Source: Hyphococcus sp. (lineage in GTDB: Bacteria; Pseudomonadota; Alphaproteobacteria; Caulobacterales; Parvularculaceae). From it: 64,000 nucleotides of DNA. The stretch lies in the NCBI GenBank assembly GCA_021776335.1, contig JAJFGB010000011.1:62001-126000 (forward strand), given 5' to 3'. Shown here piece after piece: positions 1 to 8,171 of this stretch. A program made the translations under genes and the position numbers. The notes beneath the pieces were generated by a model. It was not told the origin of the DNA. It did no database searches and saw nothing but the letters and a program-made list of their open reading frames with translations. Positions within the stretch are counted from its first letter, which is position 1, and each line of letters opens with the position of its first letter.

Positions 1-1351
1 CGGACGTCGGCACAATCATTTGTGACGAGAAATCTCTGAATGTCAGTGTGAATGCGTTGCCATCGGGCAATTCTTCATGGAGAAATTCGCCGCCGCAAAC
101 CTCCGATGCGCGCGCGACAATACGCAACGCCATCGGCATGTCCGACCCCTGGCTGGTCAAATAGTTTTCGATTTTTGTTAGTGGCTTTGTTTCTTCCACA
201 AACTGTTGTGAGGGCTTGGGCTGACCGTCATCGCGAAGCATCAGCGACACAATATCGTCTTGTTGCTGTAGCGTAAGCATCAGTTTCGACACGCCCACAG
301 GCCCTGTATTATAATAGTCGGCGAGGGATTGAATTGCCGTTTTTACAGCATATTCACTGGTTCTTATTTCTCCGGTCGACCCCTCCGTTGTCACCTTGAT
401 TCCGGCCTCGATCAATTCGCCCAAATCAGCAATCGCAGAAGTAACTGACGCCGGTTCTTCCTTGCGGCTCTCGACTTCGTCCAGACGATGGTAGATCAAC
501 AGGCTGTTGACGCTGCTGGCCAGATTCGCCGTCGCCTCCTTGATATATCGCGCGCTCTCAACGCCGGCCTCAGGGTCGTGTTGATCATTGTCACTTGCCA
601 GGCTGTCCATCACGATATCTGAAAAACCGCTGATCTGATGCAGGGGCGTTTTGACGAAATGAACCAGCATATTCAGCGCCGCGACCTTTCGCTGGTTGTC
701 CCGGCGTGCGTCTTTGAGAAGCGCGTTGAGTTGAATATTTTGTTCGCTGATTGTTTGCGTTTTAAGAAAATCGACTCGCTGATAACGCTGCATCAGGTAA
801 ACGCCCAGAAGAGCGATGACACCGACAAGAGCCACGTTTGTCGATTGCAGCAAGGCCGCTTGCTGTTCACTCATACTGCCCGCAACAATGACGAACTGCA
901 CAAAAGGTGCGCCGACAACTAGGCACATGGAATGAAAACTCAGGCGCAAGAGCACCGCCGCCATGATGTAGCTTTGGATCAACCCAAGATACCATGTGTT
1001 GTCGAGCGAAGGCTGAAGCCAGAGAATGACGTTAAGCGATGAACACATCAGCAGGACGATAACTGCAATCACCAAGTCATGGTGTTTTCTGATACGCGGC
1101 GACAACAGCGTCGAAAACAACAATGCGCTAAGCACAAAAGTGATAAGTCTGACAATTACCGGACGGGATGGATTTACGGTGTCTATGAAATCGGAAAAAA
1201 TATACAGAATAAAAACGCTTAAGCCGATGCCAATGCCCCAAGCATTGACCTTTATATTCCGCTTGAAAATATGCGCCTGAAACGCCGCTTCGCTTTTTTT
1301 GGATGCGAAGCGGGAGCTTAAAAGACTTATCTTGTCGGTTTCAGACAACAT
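1..1351 (-). CDS. Membrane sensor histidine kinase-like protein, C-terminus off the window; catalytic domain looks degenerate
   Basis: Not in ORF track (no stop inside window). Manual minus-strand translation from ATG at 1351: MLSETDKISLLSSRFASKKSEAAFQ..., hydrophobic N-terminus, H-box LVHFVKTPLHQISGFSDIV at about residue 231, open to position 2 in the same frame. Confidence 0.8.
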   Translation of the reverse strand, partial: MLSETDKISLLSSRFASKKSEAAFQAHIFKRNIKVNAWGIGIGLSVFILYIFSDFIDTVNPSRPVIVRLITFVLSALLFSTLLSPRIRKHHDLVIAVIVLLMCSSLNVILWLQPSLDNTWYLGLIQSYIMAAVLLRLSFHSMCLVVGAPFVQFVIVAGSMSEQQAALLQSTNVALVGVIALLGVYLMQRYQRVDFLKTQTISEQNIQLNALLKDARRDNQRKVAALNMLVHFVKTPLHQISGFSDIVMDSLASDNDQHDPEAGVESARYIKEATANLASSVNSLLIYHRLDEVESRKEEPASVTSAIADLGELIEAGIKVTTEGSTGEIRTSEYAVKTAIQSLADYYNTGPVGVSKLMLTLQQQDDIVSLMLRDDGQPKPSQQFVEETKPLTKIENYLTSQGSDMPMALRIVARASEVCGGEFLHEELPDGNAFTLTFRDFSSQMIVPTS

Positions 1352-1587: not shown

Positions 1588-2325
1588 ATGATTGATATAC
1601 TGGAAAAGCAGTTTCAGCCAATATTAGAGGACTTTCTCGCGTCTTCTGCCATTCTGCATTTAACCTCCAGCAATCTCACCGTTGAGGCCTATCGATCATA
1701 TCTCAGACAAACCTTCTACTATGTAAGAGAAAACCCACAGCTTCAGGCTCTGGCGACGATATATTTTCGTGGCCGCCAGCGGGATATGGTCAAGAGCTTT
1801 TACGCTCATGCGTCCTCCGAAATCGGGCATGAACAATTGGCGCTGAATGATTTTGTCACGCTGGGCGGCAACGACGCCTACACACCTTATCAAAACCCGC
1901 TTCCGGCGACGACCGCGCTTACCTCATTTGCCTATTATCAGATCTATAACCAGAACCCGCTCGGCTATCTCGGCTATCTGTTTTTCCTTGAGTTTTTGCC
2001 GACACAGGCCGGAGAAGCGATCTCTCAGCATTTGAGGGCGGCTGGCGTTCCGGAAAATGCGATGACGTTTCTTCGGGACCATATGGAAATTGATGTCAGC
2101 CACAACAGGTTGATGAAACAATATGCAAAGAGGCTTTTGAAAACTGAAGCTGATCTCGCGGCGGTGCACTATGCGATGAAAACCACGGGGTATCTTTACG
2201 CCCAAATGATCGGCGCCGCATTTGAAGACGCGGACCAGCGCATGGATACCGGCTGGAACTGGGAAGAACTTAACGCTGACGGCATTACGCCAGGAGAGCT
2301 TTCAAAGACCAGAGTTGTTGCGTAA
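1588..2325 (+). CDS. Iron-containing redox enzyme family / haem-oxygenase-like diiron oxidase (TenA-like fold)
   Basis: 245 aa helical protein with E/H ligand-type motifs EIGHEQLALND, EFLPTQAGE, DHMEIDVSHNRLM. Confidence 0.7.
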   Translation: MIDILEKQFQPILEDFLASSAILHLTSSNLTVEAYRSYLRQTFYYVRENPQLQALATIYFRGRQRDMVKSFYAHASSEIGHEQLALNDFVTLGGNDAYTPYQNPLPATTALTSFAYYQIYNQNPLGYLGYLFFLEFLPTQAGEAISQHLRAAGVPENAMTFLRDHMEIDVSHNRLMKQYAKRLLKTEADLAAVHYAMKTTGYLYAQMIGAAFEDADQRMDTGWNWEELNADGITPGELSKTRVVA

Positions 2326-2371: not shown

Positions 2372-3112
2372 CTAGGGTCTGATATAGCGCGCAACAATCG
2401 AACGGCGCTTATCAAAAATTCTTTGGTCAGATAAATCAACGCGCATGACAGCGACGTCCCCAAAACAAGGGTGAAGTTTGCTCGGATTTTGCACCTCAAA
2501 GCACATTCGCTCATAAAACGATACAAGGTGTTGATTGCAGTCCAGAAAACTCCAGGCGGCCCTGCGAGCCAACGCTATATTAAAACATTCCGCACTGAGC
2601 ATAAGCGGTAACAGCCTGCGGCGTTCGGATTTTACAACCATCAGCCGTGATGAAAAGGCCACGTTTTGGGGGTAGCTTGCTCCAGCCGTCTCAAGCTCGA
2701 GAAAATCTCGATAAAACCCGCAATTGCCGTCGGCGCAAAAGTTTATCCGGGCCGTGCCTGTTATTTTCCCATCTTTGAATGCGCCGATGTTGTAAGCATA
2801 GTCGTCAAACGGGTCTTTGATTGTTTTTTTTTCATGATCTGCGTACTGATCATTTCTTTGCATTTCCCCTTCATATATTTTGTAACGAAATTTGTAGATG
2901 TCCGGGGCGTCTTCGCCCGGCTTGAAGATGCGAAGCCCATGCGTTGCGCTCTTCGGTTGCTTCCGCCCTATATGACAGCGCGCGGTTGCGACGTTTCTTC
3001 GCTGCACGCCGGTACAACTTTGTGGAGAAAAGACTCTGTTTTCTGATTTGTTTAGGTGGCTTTCTCGACCCGACGAAGGCCACCTTGCTACGTCGCTATT
3101 ATACTCTGACAT
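2372..3112 (-). CDS. N-acyl amino acid synthase FeeM-like / autoinducer-synthase-fold GNAT acyltransferase
   Basis: GLRIFKPGEDAPDIYKFRYKIYEGEMQRNDQYADHEKKTIKDPFDDYAYNIGAFKDGKITGTARINF; the FRY.-Y..EM....D..D layout is typical of FeeM/LuxI-like acyltransferases. Confidence 0.7.
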   Translation of the reverse strand: MSEYNSDVARWPSSGRESHLNKSENRVFSPQSCTGVQRRNVATARCHIGRKQPKSATHGLRIFKPGEDAPDIYKFRYKIYEGEMQRNDQYADHEKKTIKDPFDDYAYNIGAFKDGKITGTARINFCADGNCGFYRDFLELETAGASYPQNVAFSSRLMVVKSERRRLLPLMLSAECFNIALARRAAWSFLDCNQHLVSFYERMCFEVQNPSKLHPCFGDVAVMRVDLSDQRIFDKRRSIVARYIRP

Positions 3113-3544
3113 GTAAGGCCCAAAAACGCGTGGCCTCCCCCGTGGGGGAAATTATGCCTGACAAATCACAAATATCAAAACGTTGACGGTTAACACACTC
3201 GCAGAACGGGCAGTGATCGATCAGGGTGAGCAATAGACGAGAGCGTTTATCGCCCTTCAAACAACCATGGCGGGAATTTGATTCTTTTCAATCAGACTGC
3301 GGAACAGATGGCCGAACTGCAGTTTCATCAAAATAAATTTCAGGCGCACTGATATGCATCCTGATGGGTTTGCGCTTTCTCTATTTTTCCTGACCGGCAA
3401 ACGGCTGCGCCCGATCCCGGGTTGGCTTTGACCGCTGTTGGCGCATTTCTCGAGTTGAAAGCGAGGCTTTCAACTACTAGACGCGTTCATCATGCATATA
3501 GCGCCGCCTGTCGGCGTTCAGAACGGTCGACAATACATCAGCGA

Positions 3545-3608
3545 GCAGGCGTAGCTCATGGATAGAGCAAAATCTTGCCAAGTTTAGGTCGTCTGATCGC
3601 CCGCTCCA
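3545..3608 (+). pseudogene. tRNA-Gly(GCC) remnant with deleted T-arm
   Basis: GCAGGCG-TA-GCTC-ATGGATA-GAGC-A-AAATC-TTGCCAA-GTTTA ... CGCCCGC-T-CCA: acceptor pairs 6/7, D-arm intact, GCC anticodon in a 7-nt loop, encoded CCA; about 11 nt of the T stem-loop missing and anticodon stem mismatched. Confidence 0.8.
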
Positions 3609-3723: not shown

Positions 3724-5217
3724 ATGAGTCCCAACCGCAACCATCTTGCCAATCTTGCCAAGAGCGTCTTTGACGGTCTGTTTGGCAGCGTTGCGCCCGG
3801 TCAGATCGATTGGGCGTTGGCGCGATTTGCAGATCGTACGGAAGAGAAGAATTACCAACAACACCTTGTTGATATCGAATTGCCCAAGGATAGGTTGGTT
3901 AATTATCTCGGCATCACAATCTATATGGTTTTCGGTTTTCTGGACCTGATGACATTCCAGGAAAACCTGAATCAGGTGCTTATCCTGAGATGGGTTATTT
4001 GCACACCCATTGCCATCCTTCTAATCACACTGACTTTTTCGGATTCGATTAAGCGACATTTTCAACTCGTCACGATCGCTGTGATGGCGATCGGCTCTGG
4101 CTCCATGGTCGCGATGATTGGTTTGATGGGACCGGAGGGCGGGCCGCCTTATATTGTTGGTGTTCTTGCTATCTTTATTTTCTTCTCATGCATTCAACGC
4201 ATGCATTATCCAATCGCCGCCACAGTTTATATGGCAATCGTCGCTTGCTATTCGGCAACAATCGTCTTTGTCAGCCCAAAAAGCAGCGAAGAAATTATCA
4301 GCGGCCACTTCTTTATGATCTTTATCGCATCGGTTGCGCTTTTTACGACATATATGCAGGAAATCAGATCCAGGCTGGACTATTTTCAACGACGCCAACG
4401 TGAGCTCGACGCTGCCTATATTCAGGAGTTGTTGATAGAAGCGACGGCCGCGGACCGCGCAAAAATTAGTTTCCTTTCAATTCTAAGTCACGAAATGCGA
4501 ACGCCATTGCATCAAATTGTCGGGTTTTCCGAGGTCGTTCGCAATCAGTTGCAACAAACGCTCGTCTCGGACTCCGCAAAATACCTGGATGAAATTCACA
4601 GCTCTGCGACGGGTTTGCTGTCTACAATTGGAAAAATTCTGCGCTACGCTGACGCCACTGCCGGCAAAGTTTCGTATGAAATCGACACTTGCTCGATAAA
4701 ATACCTTGTTGAAACCGTTTGCGAACAGGCCTTGACGAAAGCGGAAGCAAAAAGAATTACCATTGACGTTAACAAAATTGAGCCGACGACGCTCCAAATC
4801 GACCATCCTCATACATGTTATGCGCTCGGGCACATTGTTGAAAATGCAATCAACGCCTCCGCAACCGGCTCTACCATCGAAATAAGCGGCGCTGCCGATC
4901 CCAATGGCGGCTATATCCTTTCAATACGAGATTATGGCTGCGGCATGACGGCTGCCCAGATTAAAGACGCCATGACGCCTTTCACTCAAACCGAATCTCA
5001 CAAAACGCGCAACCGGGTCGGTGTCGGTATTGGGCTAACACTCGCAAAGAAAATTCTCTCTGACCAGAAAGCACAATTAACCATCGAGTCAGCGCCGGAA
5101 AAGGGCGCCACGGCTTACGTCCATTTTGCATTAAGCGCGCAAACACCGACAGAGTCGGAAACCGCATTACCGTCCGGTGCTAGCGGCCCGGTTTATCGAG
5201 AACAAGAAAATGGATAG
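3724..5217 (+). CDS. Membrane sensor histidine kinase (multi-TM + HisKA + HATPase_c)
   Basis: Hydrophobic N-terminal segments; H-box SHEMRTPLHQIVGFSEVV; N-box IVENAINAS; G1 DYGCGM; G2 GVGIGLTLAKK. Confidence 0.9.
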   Translation: MSPNRNHLANLAKSVFDGLFGSVAPGQIDWALARFADRTEEKNYQQHLVDIELPKDRLVNYLGITIYMVFGFLDLMTFQENLNQVLILRWVICTPIAILLITLTFSDSIKRHFQLVTIAVMAIGSGSMVAMIGLMGPEGGPPYIVGVLAIFIFFSCIQRMHYPIAATVYMAIVACYSATIVFVSPKSSEEIISGHFFMIFIASVALFTTYMQEIRSRLDYFQRRQRELDAAYIQELLIEATAADRAKISFLSILSHEMRTPLHQIVGFSEVVRNQLQQTLVSDSAKYLDEIHSSATGLLSTIGKILRYADATAGKVSYEIDTCSIKYLVETVCEQALTKAEAKRITIDVNKIEPTTLQIDHPHTCYALGHIVENAINASATGSTIEISGAADPNGGYILSIRDYGCGMTAAQIKDAMTPFTQTESHKTRNRVGVGIGLTLAKKILSDQKAQLTIESAPEKGATAYVHFALSAQTPTESETALPSGASGPVYREQENG

Positions 5218-6625
5218 CATCAAGCGGATCTGAAAGAATTTGGACCCTGGCGTCATCAACGCCGCTCGCCATCGCCTTCATGTCATTTTCATTTCTGAAA
5301 TACAGCGTCCAATCGAGCACATACTCCATTGGCCACAATGTCCCGGTTCGCTTGTCATTGACGTTGCTTATGATCAAGCGGCCGCCAGGCTTGAGAAAAT
5401 CATACATCCGGCGAATAAAGCGCATCGCGAGCAACGGATTTAAATAGTCGACCAAGCCTGCAGAGTAGACAATATCCTGCTGAAATATTTGCGCGCCAAC
5501 AGGCGATGCGCCGAGCATATCCTTAAATGAAACGTTCAAGGCTGTTGCTCGTAGTCGCTCTGAACCAGGAAGCCCCATCGCCGATGTCAGCGCATAGTCA
5601 AGCGCTTCGGGCTCTTGATCGACAAGTGTCATCGCCCAGGTCGTCGAAGAAGGAGAGCTCGCGAGAATGGGCTCAAGCTCGCGTGCCGGCCCGCAACCAA
5701 TACTCATGACATTGACCGCTCTCGCAGCATCTTCACGTGTCGCTGCATGATCCACGATAAGTTGCGCAATCGTCTGCATCCGAGACACGATAGGTTTACC
5801 CGCTTCAACACCGAGCATGTGTAAAAACTTTGACCGTAGTGACGGCCCCACAGGCGTTCCGTCATACATAAAGTTCATGATGCTGTAGTCGCCGGGATAT
5901 CCCATTGGCTTGAAATAGCACCGCGCCCAACTGGCGCCGCCAACCAATTCACGGGTGACGACGCGTTCAGTAAAAGCCTTGAGGCTGTTGCGAAGCTCTT
6001 TGTCCGTATTACAGGGGATTACCAGATCATTGCCGTCCTCAAGCAACCGTCGCCACGGTTCGCTCGCGGCGCCAATCAGAGCGTCAATTAGTTCATGAGA
6101 TTCTTGGGGCGTTAATTTATCTTCTATCGGCGCCAGGTGCTGATCAATCCGATTGAGGTATCCGCCAACAAAATTCAAAACCTCGGCGCAATAACTTTTA
6201 TATATCTGAGGTGGTTCAGGAGCGGCATGTGGAGACACTGGTTCGAGCGCTAGTGTACCGGCATTTCTGCGCACCAGAGCGTCGAGGTCAAATTTCCGCC
6301 CCGTTAGAGCGACGCCAATACTGAAATCACCGCCGGTAATTTGCGAGCGAACCTGCACCGCCGGCGCGCTGAAGATTTCACGGCCATGCTGGGTCAAGCG
6401 TAACACACCCTCAATGGAACCCTCGGGCGGTTCATCCGCCAGGTCCAGATAACGGGAGGAACAGCCCGCACCGCTCACACTTATATTTATTAGATCAAAT
6501 TCGTTGCCGTCGAACCACGCCCGGGGGGGCATGCCCAAAAACAGCTTTTTTGCCTCAAAACGCTTTGGTCGAAAAAAACGACTGTTTCCATGCGCTCCTT
6601 TGAGATCCTCATATGTTTCAGACAT
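5180..6625 (-). CDS. PilZ-like domain + class I SAM-dependent methyltransferase, resembling PhcB-type 3-OH-PAME biosynthesis proteins
   Basis: N-terminal PilZ-like segment (ISVSGAGC...); FKPMGYPGDYSIMNFMYDGTPVGPSLRSKFLHMLGV; SAM motif VNVMSIGCGPARELEP; FLKPGGRLIISNVND. Confidence 0.75.
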   Translation of the reverse strand: MSETYEDLKGAHGNSRFFRPKRFEAKKLFLGMPPRAWFDGNEFDLINISVSGAGCSSRYLDLADEPPEGSIEGVLRLTQHGREIFSAPAVQVRSQITGGDFSIGVALTGRKFDLDALVRRNAGTLALEPVSPHAAPEPPQIYKSYCAEVLNFVGGYLNRIDQHLAPIEDKLTPQESHELIDALIGAASEPWRRLLEDGNDLVIPCNTDKELRNSLKAFTERVVTRELVGGASWARCYFKPMGYPGDYSIMNFMYDGTPVGPSLRSKFLHMLGVEAGKPIVSRMQTIAQLIVDHAATREDAARAVNVMSIGCGPARELEPILASSPSSTTWAMTLVDQEPEALDYALTSAMGLPGSERLRATALNVSFKDMLGASPVGAQIFQQDIVYSAGLVDYLNPLLAMRFIRRMYDFLKPGGRLIISNVNDKRTGTLWPMEYVLDWTLYFRNENDMKAMASGVDDARVQILSDPLDAIHFLVLDKPGR

Positions 6626-6836: not shown

Positions 6837-8171
6837 ATGAAAACACAGAGTTTGCTCAGCATTACTTCATGGGCGGCGCTCAGTTTTGGCGCCCAGGCCG
6901 CTGGGTTTGCCCTTGAGCAACAAAACGCCGCGGCAATCGGCGGCGCTTATGCAGGCGCCCAAACGGAAACCGGTGATGTCGGCTTCATTTATTATAATCC
7001 CGCAGCGCTCGCAGATATCGAGGGCCTGCAGTTATCCGCCAATATCTCAGCAATCATTATCGATTCCGCCTACAGCAACGCCGCCGGTACGCTTCTTGGT
7101 CTGGCGCCGACAACCGGCCTCAACGCAGACAATGGCGCCCTCAAAGACACTGTTCTGCCCGCTGTCTTTTTCGGCATTCGGGTAAATGAGGCCCTGTCTC
7201 TGGGCTTTGGGGTGAACGCGCCGTTTGGGCTCAACTCCACTTATTCAACCAGCTCAATTGTTCGATACCATGCAACCGAAACAGATTTAAAGACAATGTC
7301 GTTTAATGCGGCGGCGGCCGTTAAACTATCAAACAAGCTTTCGATTGGCGGCGCCTTGCGGGTGCAACGGCTGGATTTCAAAGTTGGCAATGCGATCGAC
7401 TCGGCTGGCATTCTCGTTGCGAACACCGTACCCGGCTTTGTTCCCGGTACAGATGATGCTCTTGTCGTGCTTGACGGAAAAGATTTTGCAATAGGATACC
7501 AGATCGGTGCGATAAGCCAGCCGGCAGATGGTTGGAGCATCGGCGTCAACTATGCGTCAAAGATCGACCATGAATTTGACGGCGCGGCCAGTTTTGAAAT
7601 CATGTCTTCTCCGGCAAGCCAGTTGTTGAATGGATCATTCGGCCTGTTTCAAGACACAACATTTTCCAGCGCGCTCTCCACGCCCGCGAGTTTTTCAGTC
7701 GGCGTTGCTCATGATGCGTCGAAATCCCTCACATTAAAAGGGTCCGCTGTCTACACACTGTGGCACAGCTTTGAGGGCGTCGTCATTGCTTTTGATAATC
7801 CGGCGCAACCAACTGAAACATTGATGCAGGACTGGAAGGACAGTTGGGCTTTTTCTCTGGGCGGCGACTACCGAGTTGCAGAGCGAACAACGCTTCGAGC
7901 GGGTTTTATGTTCGATGCATCACCAGTAAATGATTCATTCGCTTCACCGCGCATCCCCGATGCAGATCGCTACTGGATCAATGCAGGCTTCACACAGATT
8001 ATCGGTGACAGAATGAAGCTGGATTTTGGCGCCGGATACGTGTTTGTAGATCAACGAAACATCTTGCAGCCTGCGGCGTTGCCAGAAAACCTCTTCCGCG
8101 GGAGCCTCACAAACAGCTACGACACGAATGCTCTCGTTGTGTCATTACGTTTGCTGTATCGTCGAAATTGA
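6837..8171 (+). CDS. Outer membrane long-chain fatty acid transporter, OmpP1/FadL/TodX family
   Basis: GFALEQQNAAAIGGAYAGAQTETGDVGFIYYNPAALADIEG start and beta-barrel pattern to YRR-terminus. Confidence 0.9.
   Translation: MKTQSLLSITSWAALSFGAQAAGFALEQQNAAAIGGAYAGAQTETGDVGFIYYNPAALADIEGLQLSANISAIIIDSAYSNAAGTLLGLAPTTGLNADNGALKDTVLPAVFFGIRVNEALSLGFGVNAPFGLNSTYSTSSIVRYHATETDLKTMSFNAAAAVKLSNKLSIGGALRVQRLDFKVGNAIDSAGILVANTVPGFVPGTDDALVVLDGKDFAIGYQIGAISQPADGWSIGVNYASKIDHEFDGAASFEIMSSPASQLLNGSFGLFQDTTFSSALSTPASFSVGVAHDASKSLTLKGSAVYTLWHSFEGVVIAFDNPAQPTETLMQDWKDSWAFSLGGDYRVAERTTLRAGFMFDASPVNDSFASPRIPDADRYWINAGFTQIIGDRMKLDFGAGYVFVDQRNILQPAALPENLFRGSLTNSYDTNALVVSLRLLYRRN

Follow-up and report, generated by a model that had tools for sequence, protein, structure and literature searches.

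Two membrane-anchored histidine phosphotransferases of Alphaproteobacteria, PhyT (PMC5898713) and PhyK (PMC5964349), have been established experimentally, and their ATP sites are degenerate or dispensable. Here, we analyzed a pseudo-histidine-kinase (referred to as the pseudokinase) that is encoded, together with a haem-oxygenase-like oxidase and a FeeM-type acyltransferase (jointly the trio), at the left end of a 64,000-nucleotide stretch of DNA from Hyphococcus sp. (GenBank assembly GCA_021776335.1, contig JAJFGB010000011.1, positions 62,001 to 126,000; hereafter the window). The pseudokinase resembles PhyT/PhyP and PhyK of the general stress response in its predicted membrane anchoring and conserved His; the known proteins work without autokinase activity, and the ATPase domain of PhyT is degenerate. 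However, PhyT and PhyK possess a dimerization and histidine phosphotransfer (DHp) domain of the HisKA_2 type with an HRxxN motif, whereas the pseudokinase matches HisKA in Pfam, reads HF[VI][KR]T at this position, and combines a multi-helix membrane domain with a linkage to lipid enzymes. Proteins of the PhyT/PhyK type are encoded at phyR or act on PhyR. For the trio, comparison of 21 loci revealed no conserved response regulator family among the neighboring genes.

Other described systems share individual features with this locus. DivL of Caulobacter is likewise a repurposed alphaproteobacterial histidine kinase, which binds ATP poorly and has kept its fold, but it carries Tyr in place of the His and senses through PAS domains, whereas the His is present in 21 of 21 pseudokinases and the input domain appears to be the membrane domain. 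RetS, also a kinase-like sensor and a structural match, can act on another kinase; it is, however, a hybrid kinase of Pseudomonas, and no kinase partner is evident for the pseudokinase. In the PhcS-PhcB quorum-sensing system of Ralstonia (PMC11960443), a membrane kinase-type receptor is encoded with the enzyme making its fatty-acid-derived signal. The trio differs by its FeeM-type acyltransferase, its haem-oxygenase-like oxidase, and a receptor without a usable kinase site. A second gene pair of the window, a kinase at position 3724 and a small-molecule enzyme (methyltransferase) at 5180, shares the PhcS/PhcB layout, a likeness based on gene arrangement and general knowledge. The acyltransferase of the trio scores above the Pfam cut-off for FeeM N-acyl amino acid synthases and shows a LuxI-like D-x2-D plus Arg pattern. 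We know of no FeeM synthase whose gene accompanies those of a pseudokinase receptor and an oxidase, and to our knowledge pseudo-histidine-kinases have been described mainly as single cases from cell-cycle and stress control. Here, a whole family has kept the phospho-acceptor His, lost the ATP site, and is fixed beside two enzymes for a presumed acylated product.

The pseudokinase open reading frame extends 11 bases beyond the window start in the genome sequence, where it is complete and thus not an edge artefact (Table 1). Its product comprises approximately six predicted membrane helices (residues 18–185), a DHp domain with His231 (residues 221–296), and a degenerate catalytic and ATP-binding (CA) domain (residues ~300–440). 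An initial annotation, made from the sequence alone, had read four kinase motifs as altered, and the translation reproduced all of them: the H-box VHFVKTPLHQI, the N-box region AIQSLADYYN, G1 DDGQPKP, and G2 GSDMPMALRIVARA. With 19.2 of the 26.9 bits required for HisKA and 12.7 of the 26.4 bits required for HATPase_c, the pseudokinase fell below both Pfam thresholds; the 3724 kinase reached 43.6 and 61 bits, respectively. Alignment of the two proteins nevertheless revealed homology across the membrane domain and DHp (22% identity, E 3e-18).

Table 1 Features of the window discussed in this study
Feature	Position	Strand	Details
Pseudo-histidine-kinase	1..1351	-	453 amino acids; last 3 codons and stop beyond window edge (locus L008 11990-13351)
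Haem-oxygenase-like (Haem_oxygenas_2) putative diiron oxidase	1588..2325	+	245 amino acids; Pfam PF14518, E 5e-20, 72.5 bits (cut-off 28.9)
FeeM-type N-acyl amino acid synthase-like acyltransferase	2372..3112	-	246 amino acids as listed; Pfam FeeM, E 5.5e-9, 36.4 bits (cut-off 27)
Decayed second copy of tRNA-Gly region, upstream flank included	3485..3608	+	81% across 135 alignment columns; lacks the T-loop part
Canonical membrane histidine kinase	3724..5217	+	Pfam HisKA and HATPase_c well above cut-offs; belongs to the separate kinase-methyltransferase pair
S-adenosylmethionine-dependent methyltransferase, PilZ-like N-terminal region	5180..6625	-	Tail-to-tail with the 3724 kinase, its partner

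Searching 62 genomes of the same alphaproteobacterial family yielded 21 full-length orthologues of the pseudokinase (the window copy included) and two contig-end fragments. The full-length proteins range from 87 to ~29% identity and are all confined to this one family. Profile searches for the pseudokinase and the oxidase in 298 genomes of the order and 386 of the class, and for the oxidase also in 349 genomes of the phylum, retrieved no orthologues outside this family, where the few matches were weak, partial, and kinase-like, and plasmid searches recovered just distant relatives of the oxidase and the methyltransferase. His231, Phe232 (the H+1 position directly behind the His), Thr235 (H+4), Pro236, and His238-Gln-Ile are invariant in the alignment, so that the H-box HFxxTPxHQI is retained throughout, and HisKA was found in 19 of the 21 proteins at E up to 1. 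Conversely, an acidic H+1 residue occurs in none (Phe in all), the N-box Asn remains in one (L059), a DxGxG-like G1 in another (L055), and G2 in none, although D374 of G1 is nearly invariant. The G2 position is taken by a different conserved motif, xMPMxLRTVARA, which contains the invariant Arg410 and Arg414 and is followed by the invariant Gly421. Orthologues with intact N, G1, and G2 boxes, which would have pointed to a sequencing error in the window, were thus absent, and the pseudo-histidine-kinase call of the initial annotation is well supported by the recurrence of the ATP-site losses, for which chance is likewise no explanation.

Between the two closest genomes, dN/dS (the ratio of nonsynonymous to synonymous divergence) was 0.068/0.71 for the whole gene (~0.1). 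The lowest ratio of the conserved domains was found in DHp (0.029/0.82), and the CA domain was also constrained (0.106/0.70). The low dN/dS and the recurrent motif loss indicate that the gene is maintained and that the loss of the ATP site is inherited. A degenerate kinase family is thus conserved under purifying selection, and sequence error or a decaying pseudogene is ruled out by the 21 intact orthologues and the dN/dS of ~0.1. Phylogenetically, the pseudokinases form a single clade (support 100/100) separate from the methyltransferase-linked kinases; the long-branch kinase L060 is nearest to this clade, with an unsure placement. The Phe at H+1, which the initial annotation had noted, is real but less decisive as a distinguishing mark of a pseudokinase, because the H+1 residue is also non-acidic in 8 of the family's 16 kinases linked to the methyltransferase, all eight with an N-box and seven with G1. 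In the kinases L060–L065, L072, and L073 from other genera, the missing acidic H+1 is accompanied by an altered G2 and a retained N-box. Judged by these sequences, apparent partial degeneration of the kinase core extends in the family beyond the pseudokinase clade.

A monomeric AlphaFold2 model built from the 21-row alignment (mean predicted local distance difference test score 80.5, predicted template modelling score 0.48) predicted helices that fit six passes through the membrane, a hairpin for DHp, and a kinase-type fold resembling CA. Foldseek comparison against the PDB matched the model with the kinase cores of ZraS, HK853, and CpxA, and RetS (6dk7, 6dk8) and DivL (4q20) were also listed.

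Wherever the pseudokinase is full-length (21 cases), it adjoins the oxidase and the FeeM-type acyltransferase. Of the 62 family genomes, 22 contain the oxidase, 21 of them alongside a complete pseudokinase and the remaining one alongside a fragment of it; the three genes form a fixed, conserved trio. Distances between pseudokinases and between oxidases were correlated (r = 0.74), to which shared ancestry contributes. Invariant residues of the oxidase (E48, E78, H81, E135, H165, D169, and H172 in 19 orthologues) could form a plausible Glu/His/Asp ligand set, and R76, D100xxD103, and R122 are invariant in 20 acyltransferase orthologues; likely catalytic roles of these residues are presumed from general knowledge of both folds. 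Most acyltransferase orthologues have ~195–240 amino acids as compared to 246 here, so the actual start may be located downstream. The acyltransferases fall into two divergent types, which face opposite ways with respect to the oxidase gene (for example, 2372-3112 in the window and L041 12594-13196). As the distribution of these types does not track the pseudokinase tree, replacement of the presumed signal-making enzyme is suggested. A literature search for FeeM, a haem-oxygenase-like enzyme, and a kinase gave no publication describing a module of this kind among its matches.

The trio and the kinase-methyltransferase pair seldom occur together. The oxidase was present in 22, the methyltransferase in 28, and both were present in 2 of the 62 family genomes (Fisher's exact test, relatedness ignored; p = 1.7e-5). 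This exclusion is a strong pattern, yet it involves few independent events: on an ftsK tree covering 21 loci, as few as two state changes are needed. Within the window's genus, ftsK is a neighbor of both modules, with the trio located between this gene and the ybaK-thioredoxin side, and the two modules look like alternatives at one site there. A second genus (g2) likewise has members with one or the other module. An intact tRNA-Gly gene lies just beyond the left side of the window (L008 11846-11920) and forms, with the decayed copy (Table 1), direct repeats that bracket the trio; no second copy was seen at the sister genome locus L040. The repeat in the window genome and not in the sister indicates that some rearrangement occurred here, and it is possibly the trace of an insertion or duplication around the trio.

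We tentatively favor, at somewhat less than an even chance, that the pseudokinase is a kinase-dead, ligand-gated membrane receptor with phosphotransfer or phosphatase function for an acyl signal from its own two enzymes. The acyltransferase and the oxidase would make an acylated, oxidized small molecule, which the pseudokinase may sense via its multi-helix membrane domain. Without a usable ATP site it would not autophosphorylate, and its DHp domain (His231, Thr235) could, depending on the ligand, relay phosphoryl groups from one response regulator to another or strip them from one, in the manner of PhyT/PhyK. In HisKA proteins, the acidic H+1 residue is required just for kinase activity and Thr or Asn at H+4 just for phosphatase activity (PMC3510030). 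The loss of the acidic H+1 and of the ATP site, with the His and the H+4 Thr retained, therefore fits a protein that does not autophosphorylate but possibly takes part in phosphotransfer or dephosphorylation. The receptor part of the ligand-receptor idea in the initial annotation is well supported. We infer that the two enzymes yield a signal, that the pseudokinase binds it, and that the output is phosphotransfer or phosphatase activity. Several points weigh against this reading. The conservation of the H-box could reflect response-regulator docking alone, and the H+4 Thr is also present in active kinases and hence not specific to phosphatases. Both the ligand and the biosynthetic product are presumed, the global confidence of the structural model is moderate, with the protein modeled as a monomer, and clustering of 35 loci, among them the 21 trio loci, detected no conserved response regulator family as an output partner beside the trio.

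The pseudokinase could instead act allosterically in the way of DivL or RetS, with the ligand-bound protein docking a response regulator or kinase and altering its activity without phosphoryl chemistry. DivL, a sensor of DivK~P, is inactive both as a kinase and as a phosphatase (PMC4211667). Both DivL and RetS are among the structural matches, and a CA fold that selection maintains despite the loss of the ATP motifs would suit such a function. This route is less favored because DivL lost the His (Tyr550), whereas the His and the H+4 Thr are invariant here, suggesting retained chemistry; we regard it as unlikely, albeit a serious alternative. That the pseudokinase is a divergent yet active kinase with an unorthodox ATP site appears improbable. 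While the near-invariance of D374, the kinase-like predicted fold, and the single protein with an N-box Asn (L059 from genus g7, with HATPase_c above the cut-off at 35 bits) would agree with activity, the combined absence of the N-box Asn (20 of 21), G2, and the acidic H+1 (21 of 21 each) exceeds what was tolerated by any of the active HisKA kinases examined in PMC3510030.

A role in membrane chemistry rather than signaling, with the trio making a membrane lipid or surfactant and the pseudokinase serving as membrane-state sensor or scaffold, seems quite unlikely. FeeM-type enzymes make N-acyl amino acids, some of which are described as biosurfactants and bacterial membrane aminolipids, and an apparent sphingolipid-type cluster is located just upstream; yet signaling is favored by the fixed position of a kinase relative resembling a membrane receptor next to the enzymes, an arrangement shared with Phc-type quorum systems. 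The initial annotation had proposed that the pseudokinase heterodimerizes with or regulates the 3724 kinase. The two genes are neighbors in the window and in one sister genome, their membrane domains and DHp are homologous, and RetS-GacS provides a precedent. However, the modules rarely coexist, each of the two proteins is firmly linked to enzymes of its own (the methyltransferase for the 3724 kinase, the oxidase and acyltransferase for the pseudokinase), and the modules alternate at the same site in the window's genus. In ~20 genomes, the pseudokinase would have to work, if at all, without a 3724-type kinase. As a general role we therefore reject this partnership and consider it very unlikely; a partnership restricted to the two genomes with both modules is possible.

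In the broader picture, quorum-type lipid signaling through a kinase-dead receptor that gates phosphotransfer or dephosphorylation and signaling through an active kinase-methyltransferase pair would replace each other at a single chromosomal site; this is possible but on the whole doubtful. If true, the trio would be genetically simple enough for testing whether receptors without kinase activity can read a diffusible lipid signal, and module replacement at one site would allow active receptors to be compared in nature with inactive ones that have a common membrane-sensor ancestry.

Directly left of the window (L008 1-7700), the translations resemble a sphingolipid-type gene cluster with a fatty acid hydroxylase, an acyl-AMP ligase, an epimerase, an acyl carrier protein, a serine-palmitoyltransferase-like enzyme, a DUF2141 protein, and a GNAT-like protein. 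The tail-to-tail pairing of kinase and methyltransferase recurs in the family; the PilZ-like N-terminus of the methyltransferase was recognized by eye, and Pfam gave no PilZ match. Between the methyltransferase and ftsK (6837-8171), the window encodes what appears by eye to be a FadL-like outer-membrane protein, which could carry hydrophobic signals. A layout like that at 3724-6625 was also observed in a distant phylum, on a cyanobacterial plasmid of Pseudanabaena (L080 4058-6677), where a tail-to-tail methyltransferase and kinase are followed by a single-domain response regulator.
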